From a virus, in IMG/VR virus record IMGVR_UViG_3300042328_000040, positions 1 to 33,223 of that record: DNA of 33,223 nucleotides, one strand, 5' to 3'. Below, piece by piece: positions 688-6,967 of this stretch. The notes under the pieces are model-generated. The model had not been told where the DNA came from. It did not search any database and worked only from the letters and a program-made list of their open reading frames with translations. Position 1 is the first letter of the stretch, and each line of letters begins with the position of its first letter. A program made the translations under genes and the position numbers.

Positions 688-1467
688 TTAATTTAAATAA
701 TCTTTGAAAGCTTGTGCATATTTCTCTAACGTAGTTCCAGTAAGACCTGGAGCAGTGTTGACTTCAAATAAGAATACTTTGTTGTCACGTTCACGATAAC
801 CAATGTCGACTGCACCGAAGTCTAGACCTAGAATCTTAACAGCCTTGATAGCAGCTTGCTCTATCTCTACTGGATAGTTAATATCAGCACGAGCGTAGAT
901 ATAACCGTTAGAGTGATTACGAATGCCAGTGTCACCTCCAGTCCAATTAAGTCTACGTTTCTTTTGCTGAACATCTATGACCGACTCTCTGAATACATGA
1001 ACACGATACTCATACTTATGTTTAGTACCAAGAGTATACAAGGGTGCCTCGACTAGATCAAGGATGTTCTTAGCTATTACTATACCACCTCCGCTGTGAC
1101 TTGTCAAGGAAGTTCTACAATATATAGACTCCTTGCCTAATCGTTCGCCCCCTTCTGTAGCTATGTAGAGCATGTTAGATGCCTGATATCTACTTAGACA
1201 ATACTGTGGTAGATATGGATACTCATGTTCATACAGTTTATTGAATGTATCTAGTTTGTTACATGCTATAGCAATAGCACTATGCTTATTGAGATCAGTC
1301 TCTACATAAGGCATACTCTCAGACAGACGAGAGTTTCCCCAGTTAATGATAATATCTCTACGCTTGGCTTCGTAACTAGAACGAACTCGTCGGCACCCAA
1401 GAGCCTGAGCTAGGGCTTTCGCTGATGATGACCCCATCTTGTAAGGAAACACTTTTATAAACTTCAT
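688..1467 (-). CDS. ATP-grasp ligase, 259 aa
   Basis: ATP-grasp enzymes activate a carboxylate as an acyl phosphate and join it to an amine or thiol. The C-terminal half shows the family pattern: R118 and a Gly-rich loop at 124-129 (HSGGGI), a basic stretch at 151-172, then D221 and the metal-binding E235-x-N237 in the FEVNTAPGL segment, which resembles RimK / D-Ala-D-Ala ligase-type enzymes. The N-terminal half is a short preATP-grasp domain. Start ATG 1467 has AGGAG 7 bases upstream. The first 92 bases overlap the end of the SH3-like gene. Together with the class II glutaminase and the GS-like amidoligase upstream it forms a putative peptide-bond-forming system. The substrate is unknown. 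Confidence 0.85.
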   Translation of the reverse strand: MKFIKVFPYKMGSSSAKALAQALGCRRVRSSYEAKRRDIIINWGNSRLSESMPYVETDLNKHSAIAIACNKLDTFNKLYEHEYPYLPQYCLSRYQASNMLYIATEGGERLGKESIYCRTSLTSHSGGGIVIAKNILDLVEAPLYTLGTKHKYEYRVHVFRESVIDVQQKKRRLNWTGGDTGIRNHSNGYIYARADINYPVEIEQAAIKAVKILGLDFGAVDIGYRERDNKVFLFEVNTAPGLTGTTLEKYAQAFKDYLN

Positions 1468-1840
1468 CTTCTTGCTCCTTTTGTTTTAGTTTCTGTAATT
1501 GTTGAATCTTGAATCTAGTCTCCATCTGTTTAATCTTGATGGCAATACCACGCAATCTAGGATCATCAGGTAAAGGGTTAGCCTTAATATCAGTAGTAAT
1601 AGGACCTAACTTAGCTTCGTGTACATCTAGGTTATATCCTCGTTGAACTAAACTAAGTCCACCACATGAGTGGAAGTTTTGTTTATCATCATGATCCCAT
1701 TCAACAGATACTATACCAGCATAGCCCCTATCTGTGTGAAACTTAAGGACAGTGCCTGTCATACCTGCTAAGAAAGATGTACCATCATAGTCAAAGTCTT
1801 CAGTTACTACAAGTCTTTCACCTTTATTAAATTCTAACAT
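1376..1840 (-). CDS. SH3/KOW-like small protein in the amidoligase cluster, 154 aa
   Basis: The first 65 residues look like a small beta barrel of the SH3 or KOW type: short hydrophobic strands separated by FLAGMTGTVLKF, an AGIVSVEWD strand and a closing HSCGGLSL segment. The remaining half is charged and helical (residues 95-130) with a Ser-rich tail. ATG 1840 follows the stop of the glutaminase gene by two bases, with GGAG about 10 bases upstream. Its 3' end overlaps the ATP-grasp gene by 92 bases. It could be a binding partner or adaptor for the ligases. That role is inferred from position only. Confidence 0.65.
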   Translation of the reverse strand: MLEFNKGERLVVTEDFDYDGTSFLAGMTGTVLKFHTDRGYAGIVSVEWDHDDKQNFHSCGGLSLVQRGYNLDVHEAKLGPITTDIKANPLPDDPRLRGIAIKIKQMETRFKIQQLQKLKQKEQEDEVYKSVSLQDGVIISESPSSGSWVPTSSF

Positions 1841-1842
1841 GA

Positions 1843-2751
1843 TTAGATTACTCCATAAGGATAAATAACTACTGGTTCTACTGGTGCCTCATAATCTTCT
1901 TCTAACAACTCAATGTCCATGAACTTGACATTGTAGAGGAAGTTAGGAACATCAGAGTTCTCATCAGCTGAGTCAGCCATTAAGTCTACTGAGTAGTCAC
2001 GATTAACTGCAACGATCTCCCATACAGAATCTTTAGGGAAGTAAGACTTAGTGCCTGCATCATACTGTCCACTAAGCAGAGTCACTAACTCACCTAGTGC
2101 TATGTTCTCTTTCTTGTAAGCCCATGTTTGTTTGTTATCGTAGTAACGATTAGTTAACAAAGAAGCTTGACGAGTTGGATAATATGTGCTAGGTGGTGGT
2201 GGAACATAAGGTGCTGGTTTCTTGTAACTAGAATTAGAATACCACACATCGTTATCCCATACACCCTTGTCTTCATTAAAGATCTTAGTATTACCTGTGT
2301 TATCCATAAAGATTAACTTAGAGTAACCGATACGAGCCTCGATAAGTTTTTGTATAGGGTCTTGGAATAAACCTAAGTTGCCCCACTTGTCAACGAATGG
2401 TTGTAGTATATCCTCATTGAATAACCAAGTGTCAGACTTATTAGGATCAGTGTACCCTGAGATCATACCATTGTGCACGAATGCAAAGTTGTCATTGATC
2501 TTGTATGGATGACAGTTAGCCTCATTGATTAAGCCATGTGTCTTGATACGGAAATGTATGACCGTCTCTTTCTTCTTATCACGACGATATGATTTCCAGA
2601 AGTCAGCGAAAGAGAAGAAACCTTTCTTGACATACAGTTTACCATTCTTGTGGAACATATAGCCAGCACCATCAGAGTTAGCTTTGTAACATTGAGCTAG
2701 AGTTTCTTGAGGAATCTCTTTACCCTCTGGTTTATAAATAGCGATACACAT
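1843..2751 (-). CDS. class II glutamine amidotransferase (Ntn hydrolase), 302 aa
   Basis: The protein begins Met-Cys2, so Met removal would expose Cys2 as the N-terminal nucleophile of class II glutaminases (the GATase found in PurF, AsnB and GlmS). Other family landmarks are HFRIKTHG at 66-73 with R68, NCHP near 79-82 and FVHNGMISGY at 91-100. It would release ammonia from glutamine for a partner ligase. The catalytic domain covers about residues 1-180. The rest is Tyr/Pro-rich, ending in an acidic segment. Its ATG shares one base with the stop of the amidoligase gene (TAATG), which implies translational coupling. There is no synthetase domain on this chain, so the acceptor is probably the adjacent amidoligase or ATP-grasp enzyme. 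Confidence 0.85.
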   Translation of the reverse strand: MCIAIYKPEGKEIPQETLAQCYKANSDGAGYMFHKNGKLYVKKGFFSFADFWKSYRRDKKKETVIHFRIKTHGLINEANCHPYKINDNFAFVHNGMISGYTDPNKSDTWLFNEDILQPFVDKWGNLGLFQDPIQKLIEARIGYSKLIFMDNTGNTKIFNEDKGVWDNDVWYSNSSYKKPAPYVPPPPSTYYPTRQASLLTNRYYDNKQTWAYKKENIALGELVTLLSGQYDAGTKSYFPKDSVWEIVAVNRDYSVDLMADSADENSDVPNFLYNVKFMDIELLEEDYEAPVEPVVIYPYGVI

Positions 2752-4304
2752 TATGCGAATCCTTTCAAGCAGTTAGATAATTCAGGATATGATTTACGAT
2801 TGTTAAGGACCCAATGCATAAAGCTACGATGTCCTGTAAGTTGTTTGAGTGGCACACTAACTTGAGCTGGTTGACAGTAGTCAGTCAATGCTTGACAGAA
2901 CTCTAGTCTAGCAGAGAACTCTTCCCAATTCTTAGGTGTACTAAAGATACGGAACTCAATAGTATCACGATTAGATAAGTTAAGTGCATTGTATCGTTCA
3001 CCTTGTTGCCCATTGATGAATGGGAAGGTAACAGATCGACCAGTGATCCTAGCATATTGATTGTCAATACGACCAGCGATGTGAGCAATGAATGTTTTGT
3101 TATCCATACGATTAAGGAACTCAGTCATCTTACCAATGGTAAATACATTGAGAGGCTTGCGACTCACATGCACATGCATACCTGTGTTCTTGTCAGGGAA
3201 CAGACCAAGAGAACCATATGAACTATAGAACTTCTTGAACTCCTCAAGGTGAATGTCTAGAGTAGCAGGACAAGTAACAATCTCAAAGCCATTCTTGATA
3301 GAACCATCGTGTTTCATAATGGCATGACCCTGTAAAGCTTTACCTACCTTGATCTTAGATACATCACGATCAGATGACTCATACTCTAACTCTATACCTA
3401 GATATACAGTAGAAGGTTTAACATTCTTAGCCTTGAACTTAAGAAGCTCAGGAACCTTGGTGCTATAGTTATGAATCTTATATAGATTCTCATTACATTT
3501 GAAACATGCCCCATCTATGATAGATAAGTCAGGCACTTCGTTGTGGCATACAGGACACTCACACATAGTAACTTCACTACGTTTGTATACTCTACCTTGA
3601 ATGAAGCACTCGTCATTACGAAGAAAGATATAACCGTGACGATACTCGTGACGAGAGAATCCATAATCAGTAGGTGAAAGAGCACCATTTATCTGACGAA
3701 TACCCTCAGAGAACTCATAGTTTCTACCTAAGTAATAAGGTAATACTGCTCCTGTCAAGTGGCATTTGAATAACTCTATGTTGTAGGTATTGCTCATGTG
3801 GTTTACAAGAGCATCTGGATCTGCAATTAATGCTTCATGTTGAGCAGATATAACTATGTTAAGTAACTCATGAGTGTAACCACTCTTACACCATCTTTCT
3901 GAGTTTAGACGTTTAGATACTTGTTTGTAAATACCTTTACGAAGAACCCCATTCTTTGTGGTTAGTTTAACGGGATTGGATTTGTAATACATAGCATCTA
4001 CTACAGCTTGCTCACCATCCCAACTGTTACGGATGAGGACTAGCCCAGCTGCTGCTGCTACTGTTGAATTGTAGTCACGCATATAGCCACTATTACTAAC
4101 TGAGAATAAGTGATACCATTCTTCATTGATAATAGTCATACTACTAGTAATAGATAAGGCACTACCTTTTACATAGTATCTTTTTAGAATAACTTCTCTA
4201 CCATAACTGTTGAACCCCTGCTCTATCTTCATCTTAAAGTCTGGATGTAGATTAGGTATTTCACAATTGTTTTTAACGAACTGGCTGTTGGTAAACGGTC
4301 TCAT
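2751..4304 (-). CDS. GS-like amidoligase (COOH-NH2 ligase) with zinc ribbon, 517 aa
   Basis: Residues 300-480 match the glutamine-synthetase-like amidoligase fold (Amidoligase_2 type). Visible landmarks are GIELEYE (303-309), GFEIV (339-343), MHVHVS (376-381), the basic RYNALNLSN (437-445) and EFRIF (450-454), which would bind metal, ATP and the carboxylate. C250/C253 and C267/C270 form a zinc ribbon before it. The N-terminal 240 residues are unassigned. Such enzymes form amide bonds between carboxylates and amines, and comparative genomics has placed them with ATP-grasp and class II glutaminase genes, as here. Start ATG 4304 has AAGGAG 10 bases upstream and overlaps the previous small gene. 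The target (peptide, cell wall, nucleotide or metabolite) cannot be read from the sequence. Confidence 0.8.
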   Translation of the reverse strand: MRPFTNSQFVKNNCEIPNLHPDFKMKIEQGFNSYGREVILKRYYVKGSALSITSSMTIINEEWYHLFSVSNSGYMRDYNSTVAAAAGLVLIRNSWDGEQAVVDAMYYKSNPVKLTTKNGVLRKGIYKQVSKRLNSERWCKSGYTHELLNIVISAQHEALIADPDALVNHMSNTYNIELFKCHLTGAVLPYYLGRNYEFSEGIRQINGALSPTDYGFSRHEYRHGYIFLRNDECFIQGRVYKRSEVTMCECPVCHNEVPDLSIIDGACFKCNENLYKIHNYSTKVPELLKFKAKNVKPSTVYLGIELEYESSDRDVSKIKVGKALQGHAIMKHDGSIKNGFEIVTCPATLDIHLEEFKKFYSSYGSLGLFPDKNTGMHVHVSRKPLNVFTIGKMTEFLNRMDNKTFIAHIAGRIDNQYARITGRSVTFPFINGQQGERYNALNLSNRDTIEFRIFSTPKNWEEFSARLEFCQALTDYCQPAQVSVPLKQLTGHRSFMHWVLNNRKSYPELSNCLKGFA

Positions 4305-4464
4305 TTCCTTTAAGCTCCTTATTAGTTGATAAACTCGATACTAACTGTATCAAGGTCTTACGGTCTATACTACTACTACTTTTAGGAAGTCTATTAAACT
4401 TCTTAAAATACAAATGACAATACATCTCGTTGAGAGTATCAGTCGAATACTTCGAGATTAACAT
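4273..4464 (-). CDS. small hypothetical protein, 63 aa
   Basis: This is a basic, mostly helical small protein with the segment NEMYCHLYFKKFNRLPKSS. The chosen ATG (4464) has AAAGGA 8 bases upstream. The earlier in-frame ATG at 4473 sits on that site. The gene starts inside the end of the 52-residue gene and its last 32 bases overlap the amidoligase start, typical of tightly packed phage operons. No family is recognised. Confidence 0.5.
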   Translation of the reverse strand: MLISKYSTDTLNEMYCHLYFKKFNRLPKSSSSIDRKTLIQLVSSLSTNKELKGNETVYQQPVR

Positions 4465-4597
4465 AGTAATCATCCTTTCCTGTTAGGATTGTTTGTTGCC
4501 CATTTCTATCTGTTAGGACTACATAGCACACATTTGATGATAAGTCAACAGATACTAGAATAATTAATACACTTACTAAACCTAATAGTAATTTCAT
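4439..4597 (-). CDS. small membrane or exported protein, 52 aa
   Basis: From ATG 4597 (AAGGAA 7 bases upstream) the protein starts MKLLLGLVSVLIILVSVDL, one hydrophobic segment that could be a membrane anchor or signal peptide. A short polar domain with NGQQTILTGKDDYY follows. A longer reading from 4672 exists, but its extra residues lack an RBS and are not hydrophobic, so the short form is preferred. It is the first confident gene after the terminator at 4790-4816. Function is unknown. Confidence 0.6.
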   Translation of the reverse strand: MKLLLGLVSVLIILVSVDLSSNVCYVVLTDRNGQQTILTGKDDYYVNLEVFD

Positions 4598-4835: not shown

Positions 4836-5600
4836 TTAGTCTTGCGGTGCTACCATACCTTGTTGTGGACGACAAGTCCAACGAGCGAATGCTAGAATCT
4901 CAGGGTCAATGTAACCTGCTTTGCCTGCCATTAAGCTTGCCTTAGCACGATCTAGCATACCTATCGCTGACTGATGAATGATATACAGAGGGTCAATCTT
5001 CATCTCTGCGATTGCATTCTCTAAGTCATCGTAATCACAAGAACCATTTAGATGTTCTAAGCGTGGTTCTTTTGTTACACCGAAGATTTCTGTTAGAGCA
5101 TGGTCTACCAGCTCATCTACTTCTGATGTTACATCTTTCAAAGGGATATCAGTCTTGATACCTAATGCTCTAGCTTGGTCTTGACGCTGAGTGTTAACTC
5201 GACCTGCCTTGTAGTTTTGGAAGTTACGGATGTAACTCTCAAGTGATGGGATGTTATACCAAGCGAATGGATTGATTGGAGCACCTGTTCGTGTATCGTA
5301 ATCCTCAAACTCTGCTAATTTACTTAGCGTGTAGTGTAGGTAGAAGAAAGCAGAAACTAGTGTCTCTAAGTCTGCTGGTTGTTTAGCTTGCACCTCGTCT
5401 GGTGTTGTAGCTAACTCACCACCATCGATGATATCTTGTTTAGATAAACCGTAACCGTTTGTAACAGGGTGACGAGCAATAGCACCACCTACATGCCATA
5501 GTAAGTTACGAGCACCGAGGTGTTGCAAGGTCTCGCCTTTCTCACCATCGATAATTGTTTGAAAGGTAAAGCTTGAAGTATTAAGTGTAGCGTTTGACAT
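4836..5600 (-). CDS. early protein of unknown function, 254 aa
   Basis: ATG 5600 has AAAGGA about 8 bases upstream. The protein is soluble, without signal peptide or membrane segment. It has an early LQHLGARNLLWHVGGAIARH segment, a helical, aromatic central part (SAFFYLHYTLSKLAEFEDY) and no catalytic motif that I recognise. It has its own leader hairpin and its own strong terminator, which suggests high or separately controlled expression early in infection. It is the first sizeable gene of the leftward arm, a position where phages often place host-takeover proteins. That role is inference from position. Confidence 0.75.
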   Translation of the reverse strand: MSNATLNTSSFTFQTIIDGEKGETLQHLGARNLLWHVGGAIARHPVTNGYGLSKQDIIDGGELATTPDEVQAKQPADLETLVSAFFYLHYTLSKLAEFEDYDTRTGAPINPFAWYNIPSLESYIRNFQNYKAGRVNTQRQDQARALGIKTDIPLKDVTSEVDELVDHALTEIFGVTKEPRLEHLNGSCDYDDLENAIAEMKIDPLYIIHQSAIGMLDRAKASLMAGKAGYIDPEILAFARWTCRPQQGMVAPQD

Positions 5601-5634
5601 GATTTGTTTCCTTTAATAAGTAAAGTTTAAATGT

Positions 5635-5654
5635 GAGGTAGTAACCGCTACCTC
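5635..5654. promoter_or_regulatory. leader hairpin before the 254-residue early gene
   Basis: GAGGTAG and CTACCTC form a perfect 7-bp stem with a 6-base loop, 35 bases upstream of the early gene start. On the minus strand no T-run follows, so it is more likely a 5' mRNA stabiliser or processing site than a terminator. On the plus strand a TTTTT tract follows 6 bases later, which makes a weak terminator possible. Confidence 0.4.
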
Positions 5655-5663
5655 GTTCGGTTT

Positions 5664-5804
5664 TTAAAGCTTATAATTGAAACCATTAATTTTTGAATGT
5701 TTAGCATGTTTCCGTTTAGCTACAAGTGTAACACATAAATCAGCTATACAAAACAGACCACACAAACAACCAATAAATACTAATAATAAGATTAAATTTT
5801 CCAT
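5664..5804 (-). CDS. small single-span membrane protein, 46 aa
   Basis: ATG 5804 has GGAG 9 bases upstream. Residues 3-28 are strongly hydrophobic (LILLLVFIGCLCGLFCIADL is the core) and contain four Cys by residue 24. A basic tail starting AKRKHAKHSK follows, so the tail should face the cytoplasm. It is the first gene after the long non-coding leader of the leftward promoter. Short membrane proteins at this place in phages sometimes act in superinfection exclusion or host takeover. No family is recognised. Confidence 0.6.
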   Translation of the reverse strand: MENLILLLVFIGCLCGLFCIADLCVTLVAKRKHAKHSKINGFNYKL

Positions 5805-5910
5805 AACAAGTTACTCCATATAAAGATGATTAAGATAATAATGAGAGGATTATGTTGTCCTCTGATTGCGTCATCGACAGAGTTAACCTTATAGGTTGTC
5901 AATGATTCGT

Positions 5911-5996
5911 TGAAAGAATTTCATTGGTCTTAGTTGTCACACTCAAACACAATCTATAATCTTAATCATAGAACTAAGAGCAATGAAATTGTTTCA
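5911..5996. repeat. long inverted repeat, 25-base arms
   Basis: The arms 5911-5935 and 5972-5996 are complementary at 23 of 25 positions. Both mismatches are G facing G, one at each end of a 10-bp block. The loop is 36 bases (5936-5971). There is no T-run on either side, so it is not a standard terminator. Confidence 0.8.
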
Positions 5997-6002
5997 TAAG
6001 AA

Positions 6003-6250
6003 CAGCGTGAGCTGCGTTTTTCTTTGGCGTTTTCCGACAAAGAAAATTCACGAAGTGAAAGTCATTTACAATCTATAAGTTAATAGCTGTATAATCCGCT
6101 ATCAAAGGATAGCGTAATCCTCTCTCTCTACCGTAGGTTTATCAGGGTAGCGACAGCGACCGTCATGCCATACTCTAATGAGCGAGGGACTCGAGCGAAA
6201 CGTGCACTACCAAGCACGACAGGATGTCGTATAACGAGCGTAAGCGAGTG
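6003..6250. other. hairpin-rich, GC-richer segment
   Basis: Perfect stems include TTTTCTTTG/CAAAGAAAA (6018-6046), TTCAC/GTGAA (6047-6059), CGCTATC/GATAGCG with loop AAAG (6097-6114), CGAG/CTCG (6183-6193), CGTGC/GCACG (6201-6218) and ACGACA/TGTCGT (6216-6230). The last two share bases and exclude each other. No tRNA or rRNA signature is present. It could be a structured RNA or a DNA site for replication or packaging. Confidence 0.55.
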
Positions 6251-6782
6251 ATAAGAAAGCGTTAGACTCAACTAGATTTTGAACTATGATTTTGAATTGG
6301 ATTTTACTTTAATAATCAATAACATATATTATAATATGTAATAGCTACAAAGTATTATGTAGATAGTGTAGATACTACATATGATGATACCTAGAGAATA
6401 ACTAGATTGATACCTATAGTGCACCACATTACACATATACACTTAAAGAATTAGATAGAGTGTGAGTATATCTGCATAGTATCTATATCATACACTACAC
6501 ATACCACATACTCAGTCTGTCTTTAACTTACCGAAGGTAAGACATAGTCATCTATGTAGACAAGATAGGGGGGGGGTATCCTATGAAGAGCACAAGGTTT
6601 TGATGATGTACCTACTTAGACACAACAAAGGCTAAATTGGACTATCCAGAAGAGAAGGGATTCTAACGAACAAAGGAGGGCGTATACAAGACTATATAGA
6701 TCTGAGACATTACTCAAAGTAACTCTAATTCTAAATACTAGATTTTAGTATTTGTTTTACTTTGTGTTTACTATATAGTACT

Positions 6783-6811
6783 ATTATAGCATATTTTTCT
6801 ATAAAAGTCAA
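6783..6811 (-). promoter_or_regulatory. leftward sigma70 promoter (early arm)
   Basis: On the minus strand TTGACT (6811-6806), a 17-base spacer and TATAAT (6788-6783) make a near-consensus sigma70 promoter, with a TGC extension before the -10. A 12-base palindrome TACTATATAGTA (6770-6781) lies at the predicted start site and could be an operator. It reads into the non-coding region and then the early genes. Confidence 0.85.
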
Positions 6812-6880
6812 TATCCGACATAGCAAAATCTTAAAATAAATCTTTCTTCTTAAATTGCGAACGCAGTGAGCATAATTTGC

Positions 6881-6909
6881 TTGACTTTTAGTTTCTTCTG
6901 TGTTATAAT
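6881..6909 (+). promoter_or_regulatory. rightward sigma70 promoter (late arm)
   Basis: TTGACT (6881-6886), a 17-base spacer and TATAAT (6904-6909), with TGT before the -10, form a near-consensus promoter. It faces away from the leftward promoter, with 69 bases between their -35 boxes. A small hairpin TCCACT/AGTGGA (6933-6948) lies in the leader just before the HNH ribosome binding site. Confidence 0.88.
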
Positions 6910-6967
6910 GATTACATAGTTAGTAAATTATTGTCCACTCTTTAGTGGATCGAGCGGAGCGAGAGAC

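Follow-up and report, generated by a model that had tools for sequence, protein, structure and literature searches.

The locus and its genes

The window analysed here is the whole of the 33,223-base virus record IMGVR_UViG_3300042328_000040, which comes from a freshwater bacterial virus and carries at positions 688-4304 a cluster of genes for a glutamine synthetase (GS)-superfamily amidoligase, a class II glutaminase, a small SH3-like protein and an ATP-grasp ligase. The virus is a Zobellviridae-like podovirus related to the Methylophilales phages MEP401 and MEP402. It is identified as a podovirus by its kinship with those two members of the Zobellviridae and by the presence of terminase, portal, capsid, DNA polymerase, ribonucleotide reductase and phosphoesterase genes. 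The original prediction, made from the letters of the window, had described four genes in a row. All four open reading frames (ORFs) are confirmed, and all lie on the minus strand:

2751..4304, minus strand: GS-superfamily amidoligase of 517 amino acids (aa), with an N-terminal domain (residues ~1-245), a putative C4 zinc ribbon and an amidoligase domain (~300-480)
1843..2751, minus strand: class II (N-terminal nucleophile, Ntn) glutaminase/amidotransferase of 302 aa with an N-terminal Cys2 nucleophile, assigned from motifs and GlmS matches
1376..1840, minus strand: small accessory protein, SH3/KOW-like with a putative beta-barrel, whose basic C-terminal helix (~86-112) is conserved; the fold is tentative
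688..1467, minus strand: RimK-like ATP-grasp ligase of 259 aa, assigned from phrog_2599 and RimK structures, with the ribosome-binding site (RBS) AAAGGAG

Every junction had been described as an overlap of one to 92 bases. The outer two overlaps are real: the amidoligase stop and the glutaminase start have one base in common, in TAATG, and the SH3-like ORF overlaps the ATP-grasp ORF by 92 bases, with AAAGGAG preceding the ATP-grasp start. Between the glutaminase and SH3-like ORFs there is instead a gap of 2 bases. The 92-base overlap is restricted to part of the lineage, and at three related loci (L011, L014 and L041 in our numbering) it measures only ~10-11 bases and the SH3-like protein ends in ..YDF.

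Purifying selection acts on all four genes, with pairwise ratios of nonsynonymous to synonymous substitution rates (dN/dS) from the window of 0.17-0.38 for the ligase, 0.14-0.24 for the glutaminase, 0.12-0.24 for the ATP-grasp gene and 0.30-0.66 for the SH3-like gene, the last figure being influenced by the ATP-grasp overlap. Such values well below 1, together with the family matches and invariant residues given below, indicate that the catalytic signatures noted at the outset are not chance resemblances.

Identity of the three enzymes

The amidoligase matches Pfam Amidoligase_2 (PF12224; E 3.6e-6, 27.5 bits against a curated cutoff of 22) over residues 408-473 only, and phrog_16683 at E 5.6e-18. 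All of the GS-type motifs GxExE, DGS, E, HxH and ExR are invariant in an alignment of 43 sequences, the invariant residues being E305, E307, D333, E341, H377, H379, E450 and R452. An AlphaFold2 model built from this alignment has a mean predicted local distance difference test score (pLDDT) of 86.9 and a predicted template modelling score (pTM) of 0.55, so that the relative placement of its domains is unsure. When this model was compared with the PDB using Foldseek, the top 12 matches were all GS-superfamily COOH-NH2 ligases, headed by 1tt4 (YbdK type, E 2e-4), GmaS 9qur (7e-4), PafA-Pup and Dop, and the best YbdK, GmaS, PafA and Dop entries had probabilities of 0.90-1.00. The model is thus GS-like by fold, in line with the fold that had been proposed for residues 300-480; these limits are set by the Pfam match and the invariant residues, as Foldseek's matched ranges were not printed. 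The proposed zinc ribbon gains from the invariance of C250, C253, C267 and C270 in the 43 relatives, a pattern that would fit such a structure.

For the glutaminase, residues C2, R68, T71, G73, N79, H81, N94, G95 and D107 are invariant in 40 aligned sequences, and the class II set of N-terminal Cys, RxxT[HS]G, NxHP, HNG and DT motifs is present, which agrees with the identity first given to it. Its closest NCBIfam models are those of GlmS (E about 5e-7, residues 27-102), and a profile search of the PDB returned the stand-alone class II domain protein 3mdn as the best sequence match and GlmS glutaminases as well. The Pfam GATase_4 and GATase_6 cutoffs are missed (17.3 and 17.1 bits against 23 and 27), and the family assignment is made from the motifs and the GlmS/GFAT matches, not from a Pfam score. 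A mixed glutaminase alignment was set aside as a scan profile because it was too divergent. At one related locus (L019 4671-5063) a truncated second copy of the C-terminal part of the glutaminase lies downstream of the intact pair.

The 259-aa protein was likewise correctly recognized as an ATP-grasp ligase, as it matches phrog_2599 at E 6e-68 and its nearest solved structures by sequence are 5zct and 4iwx, both RimK chains, with E values of about 6e-8 to 8e-8. Residues E153, R155, D221, E235 and N237 are invariant, and the cutoff of the R2K ATP-grasp clade PF18299 is not reached (14.9 bits against 26.2).

Compact and long layouts among relatives

A scan with the amidoligase yielded 28 loci and a scan with the ATP-grasp protein 80 confirmed loci, which are the best 80 of 519 and consequently biased toward near kin. 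Layouts were compared at 58 non-redundant ATP-grasp loci, each with at least 3 kb upstream, and fall into two exclusive kinds: 40 are compact and 18 long, with none having both layouts and none neither. In the compact layout this zinc-ribbon amidoligase and the small glutaminase replace the other ligase and glutaminase genes of the long cassette, the latter being the phage "peptidoglycan modification cassette" of the literature. The COOH-NH2 ligase PF14395, the long GFAT-like glutaminase, C26 and GGCT are absent from all 40 compact loci, and on the ATP-grasp tree the compact and long labels need 2 changes as compared with 18.3 when shuffled. One partly mixed locus, that of the Stenotrophomonas phage StenR_269 (L052 4190-12354), was counted as long; it has a small glutaminase of the compact kind, two GS-like genes, the ATP-grasp gene, the long-form amidoligase and glutaminase, and GGCT, with this ligase missing. 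The cluster is present in dozens of relatives, whereas its absence from all of them would have told against the original prediction, and the window holds a real compact form, conserved and widespread, of a phage cassette already known from prediction.

The ligase-glutaminase pair is the core and the ATP-grasp gene an add-on, because ligase is followed by glutaminase in 69/69 cases while 18 ligase-glutaminase loci have no ATP-grasp gene nearby, the complete MEP401 genome has neither an ATP-grasp nor an SH3-like gene, and ATP-grasp presence switches at least 3 times on the ligase tree (which has long branches and an unsure deep order). The pair is also found with no adjoining ATP-grasp gene in mycobacteriophage Marvin and in actinobacterial loci. 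The suggestion of two ATP-dependent steps can thus be retained for the clade that bears the ATP-grasp enzyme, but it is not general as the core pair also occurs without any such enzyme.

Clear bacterial loci occur only sporadically, with the neighbourhoods of L132 and L133 plasmid- or element-like by eye, and 0/296 other genomes of the class gave a match. A non-phage bacterial operon that would serve as a functional clue was ruled out on these grounds, and a PADLOC search for an anti-phage defence family gave no match. A 7.3-kb contig labelled as a Thaumarchaeota metagenome-assembled genome (MAG) (L131, JAGWGB010000033.1) carries a compact cluster of the phage type with 43% ligase identity, and is probably a phage contig that was binned with that MAG.

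Small proteins between the glutaminase and ATP-grasp genes

In many relatives the slot that the SH3-like ORF occupies in the window lacks any small protein, and in others it holds between one and four divergent proteins of ~100 aa. The model of the SH3-like protein has a pLDDT of 59 and no fold match with E below 0.5, weak ones including eS4, CAP-Gly, Tudor and SH3 barrels; its most constrained region is the C-terminal helix at ~86-112. The view of this protein as a fixed partner was not sustained, since most relatives lack it, and it is an optional, variably duplicated accessory. Tandem duplicate SH3-like genes occur at L070 6036-6798 and L068 319-1126, where the C-terminal helix PxDPRLRGIxxKI is retained and the barrel has diverged.

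The ends of these small proteins (..GYAF or ..YDF) and of small proteins in CVT22 and CW02 (LENE/LEENV) led us to consider them as carriers, a reading that was rejected because at the DNA level the ends supply the RBS of the following gene and, in another frame, its start (TATGCNTTTTAA; TTGGAGAATGAATAA), and so are no evidence for a substrate tail. A role as amidoligase-specific partners was also rejected, as similar small proteins adjoin DNA polymerase genes in CVT22. In this Citrobacter phage (L043 476-8173, 10472-13538) ~15 small ORFs of 60-90 aa, mostly KOW/SH3-like and ending in LENE, are scattered among early genes, and several small ORFs of CW02 (L044) end in LEEN[VIL]. Both kinds of end coincide with the RBS of the following gene, which suggests a proliferating gene-plus-RBS cassette.

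Sequences upstream of the cluster

Two further features lie upstream of the amidoligase:

4273..4473, minus strand: small conserved ORF of 66 aa directly upstream of the amidoligase, with a weak match (E 1e-4) in the same place in MEP401
6783..6811, minus strand: candidate sigma-70 promoter (11/12, extended -10) directed toward the cluster; a pattern match only, of a kind whose total is not above that in shuffled sequence

Positions 4836-5600 encode a 254-aa protein with no family match that is present in only some close relatives. No ORF of at least 60 aa occurs in 5601-6967, which contains a divergent pair of 11/12 promoter-like sites, at 6783-6811 on the minus strand and at 6881-6909 on the plus strand; this segment is likely the boundary of early versus late transcription.

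Proposed function and alternatives

By what is established for these enzyme families, a GS-superfamily ligase would activate a carboxylate by phosphorylation, and an ATP-grasp ligase would do likewise for a second bond. We propose, with about equal expectation of being right and wrong, that the cluster is a compact non-ribosomal amide-forming module composed of a glutaminase-fed GS ligase core and an optional ATP-grasp enzyme, with a host peptide carboxylate rather than phage DNA as its target. For ammonia transfer, step order, target and timing we infer the following route. The small class II glutaminase, translationally coupled to the ligase, probably frees ammonia from glutamine or handles a gamma-glutamyl group; glutamine is the putative source because of the constant pairing and the coupling. 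The ligase would then use ATP to turn a carboxylate into an acyl-phosphate and from this form the amide, while recognition of the acceptor would probably fall to the zinc ribbon and the N-terminal domain. Where present, the RimK-like enzyme would form a second amide bond, probably by attaching an amino acid, and the small beta-barrel proteins may act as adaptors. The likeliest target is a cytoplasmic host peptide carboxylate, either the stem peptide of a peptidoglycan precursor or a protein, that would be modified early in infection. AsnB/LtsA-type class II enzymes amidate stem-peptide carboxylates of peptidoglycan. MurT/GatD does the same (PMC3267633), and with both precedents a wall-precursor target is chemically reasonable. 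A bolder version, which we consider doubtful, is that the pair constitutes a glutamine-dependent amidating enzyme on the glutamine-synthetase fold with which phages early on amidate the peptidoglycan precursors of the host, or one of its proteins, with one compact ligase replacing two long-form ones. We know of no characterised example of a glutaminase paired with a GS-fold ligase as an amidating enzyme.

Several observations weigh against the proposed module. No member of the cluster has a known substrate or product, and the equivalence of the compact and long forms is based on the shared ATP-grasp gene and genome position, not on chemistry. GS-superfamily enzymes normally take free ammonia or amines, which makes the ligase-glutaminase coupling only putative. 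The Foldseek TM-scores are low (0.2-0.3 across the whole chain, as the match covers only part of the amidoligase), as is the pTM. Additionally, the conserved class II residues do not tell a glutaminase apart from an EgtC/Dug3-type gamma-glutamyl hydrolase. A rather unlikely alternative has the GS-like ligase forming a gamma-glutamyl amide in the manner of GmaS and GshA/EgtA and the Ntn enzyme hydrolysing a gamma-glutamyl bond in that of EgtC/Dug3, so that a small metabolite or protecting group is made or recycled with no ammonia transfer. The top ligase fold matches to YbdK and gamma-glutamyl-methylamide synthetase, the 3mdn match of the glutaminase, and the presence in long-form relatives of C26 and GGCT, both gamma-glutamyl-active families, speak for it, but the closest NCBIfam models of the Ntn enzyme are GlmS glutaminases and the compact form lacks C26 and GGCT.

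It is unlikely that the cluster tags a host or phage protein with amino acids in the manner of RimK and Pup, with the RimK-like ATP-grasp enzyme and the GS-like ligase acting together and the small beta-barrel proteins perhaps serving as carriers or substrates. RimK is nearest to the ATP-grasp protein, PafA and Dop are among the ligase fold matches, and slot proteins occur in 1-4 copies with a common constrained C-terminal helix; however, their GYAF/YDF ends are accounted for by translation signals and the slot is empty of small proteins in many compact clusters. The original prediction had also offered DNA modification, and the cluster does adjoin replication genes, yet a pathway of DNA base hypermodification via amide ligation is disfavoured and seems very improbable: the proposed co-occurrence check of 17 long relatives turned up neither a thymidylate-synthase homologue nor one of QueC (some records may be incomplete; both searches were positive in control genomes), and there was no base-modification family among the 44 MEP401 proteins scanned.

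Comparison with known systems

Phage amidoligase cassettes are common, and knowledge of them goes back to 2009. The proposed link between the window cluster and published clusters with cell-wall proposals is borne out, as papers on the long form, arguing from prediction, describe it as a peptidoglycan modification cassette and connect it with superinfection exclusion (PMC5498523, PMC11945000), a proposal for which they cite Iyer and colleagues and Hardies 2013. The long cassette of PSA-HP1 is transcribed immediately after infection (PMC7082346), and mass spectrometry of a crude preparation of SU10, a phiEco32 relative, detected the ATP-grasp enzyme, the glutamine amidotransferase and a YtfP/UPF0131 protein (PMC4281155). 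In the open-access papers searched we found none that gives the cassette product or an altered host peptidoglycan for either form, and no description of the compact ligase-glutaminase-ATP-grasp form.

The long cassettes of phiEco32, LUZ24/UFV-P2, RIO-1/PSA-HP1, CW02 and CVT22 share with the window an ATP-grasp enzyme of phrog_2599, with 37-43% identity for many members, a GS-like amidoligase, a class II glutaminase and the same early location, which in Zobellviridae lies upstream of primase. In contrast, the window lacks several components of the long form: the PF14395 ligase, another type of amidoligase, the long GFAT-like glutaminase and a protein of ~190 aa, as well as C26 and/or GGCT, which the long form often adds. 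The ~190-aa protein precedes the long-form amidoligase, and the idea that the N-terminus of the window ligase is its fused counterpart was ruled out as hhalign returned nothing significant. Among characterized enzymes, YbdK, GmaS and PafA/Dop share the ligase fold, but at 11-16% identity and with an added N-terminal domain and zinc ribbon the window ligase has no sequence-level membership in these families. Similarly, RimK, the ribosomal protein S6 glutamate ligase, is the closest solved structure to the ATP-grasp protein, which nevertheless scores under the NCBIfam rimK cutoffs.

The simplest counterparts are pairs. An amidoligase and GATase have been reported from MEP401/402 and from more than 30 genomes of metagenomic origin (PMC10580990). 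In the related phages MEP401/402 the orthologues have the same order as in the window, with identities of 30-32% for the amidoligase and 45-46% for the glutaminase. Marvin gp105-gp106 and the actinobacterial loci L132, L133 and L136 have the same ligase-glutaminase pair, but this is far diverged and has a different cysteine-rich N-terminus. While the compact form cuts the cassette to three enzymes, the MEP401/Marvin form cuts it to two. Consequently, MEP401, and Marvin in M. smegmatis, provide minimal cultured systems for direct tests of the chemistry and of the cell-wall hypothesis.

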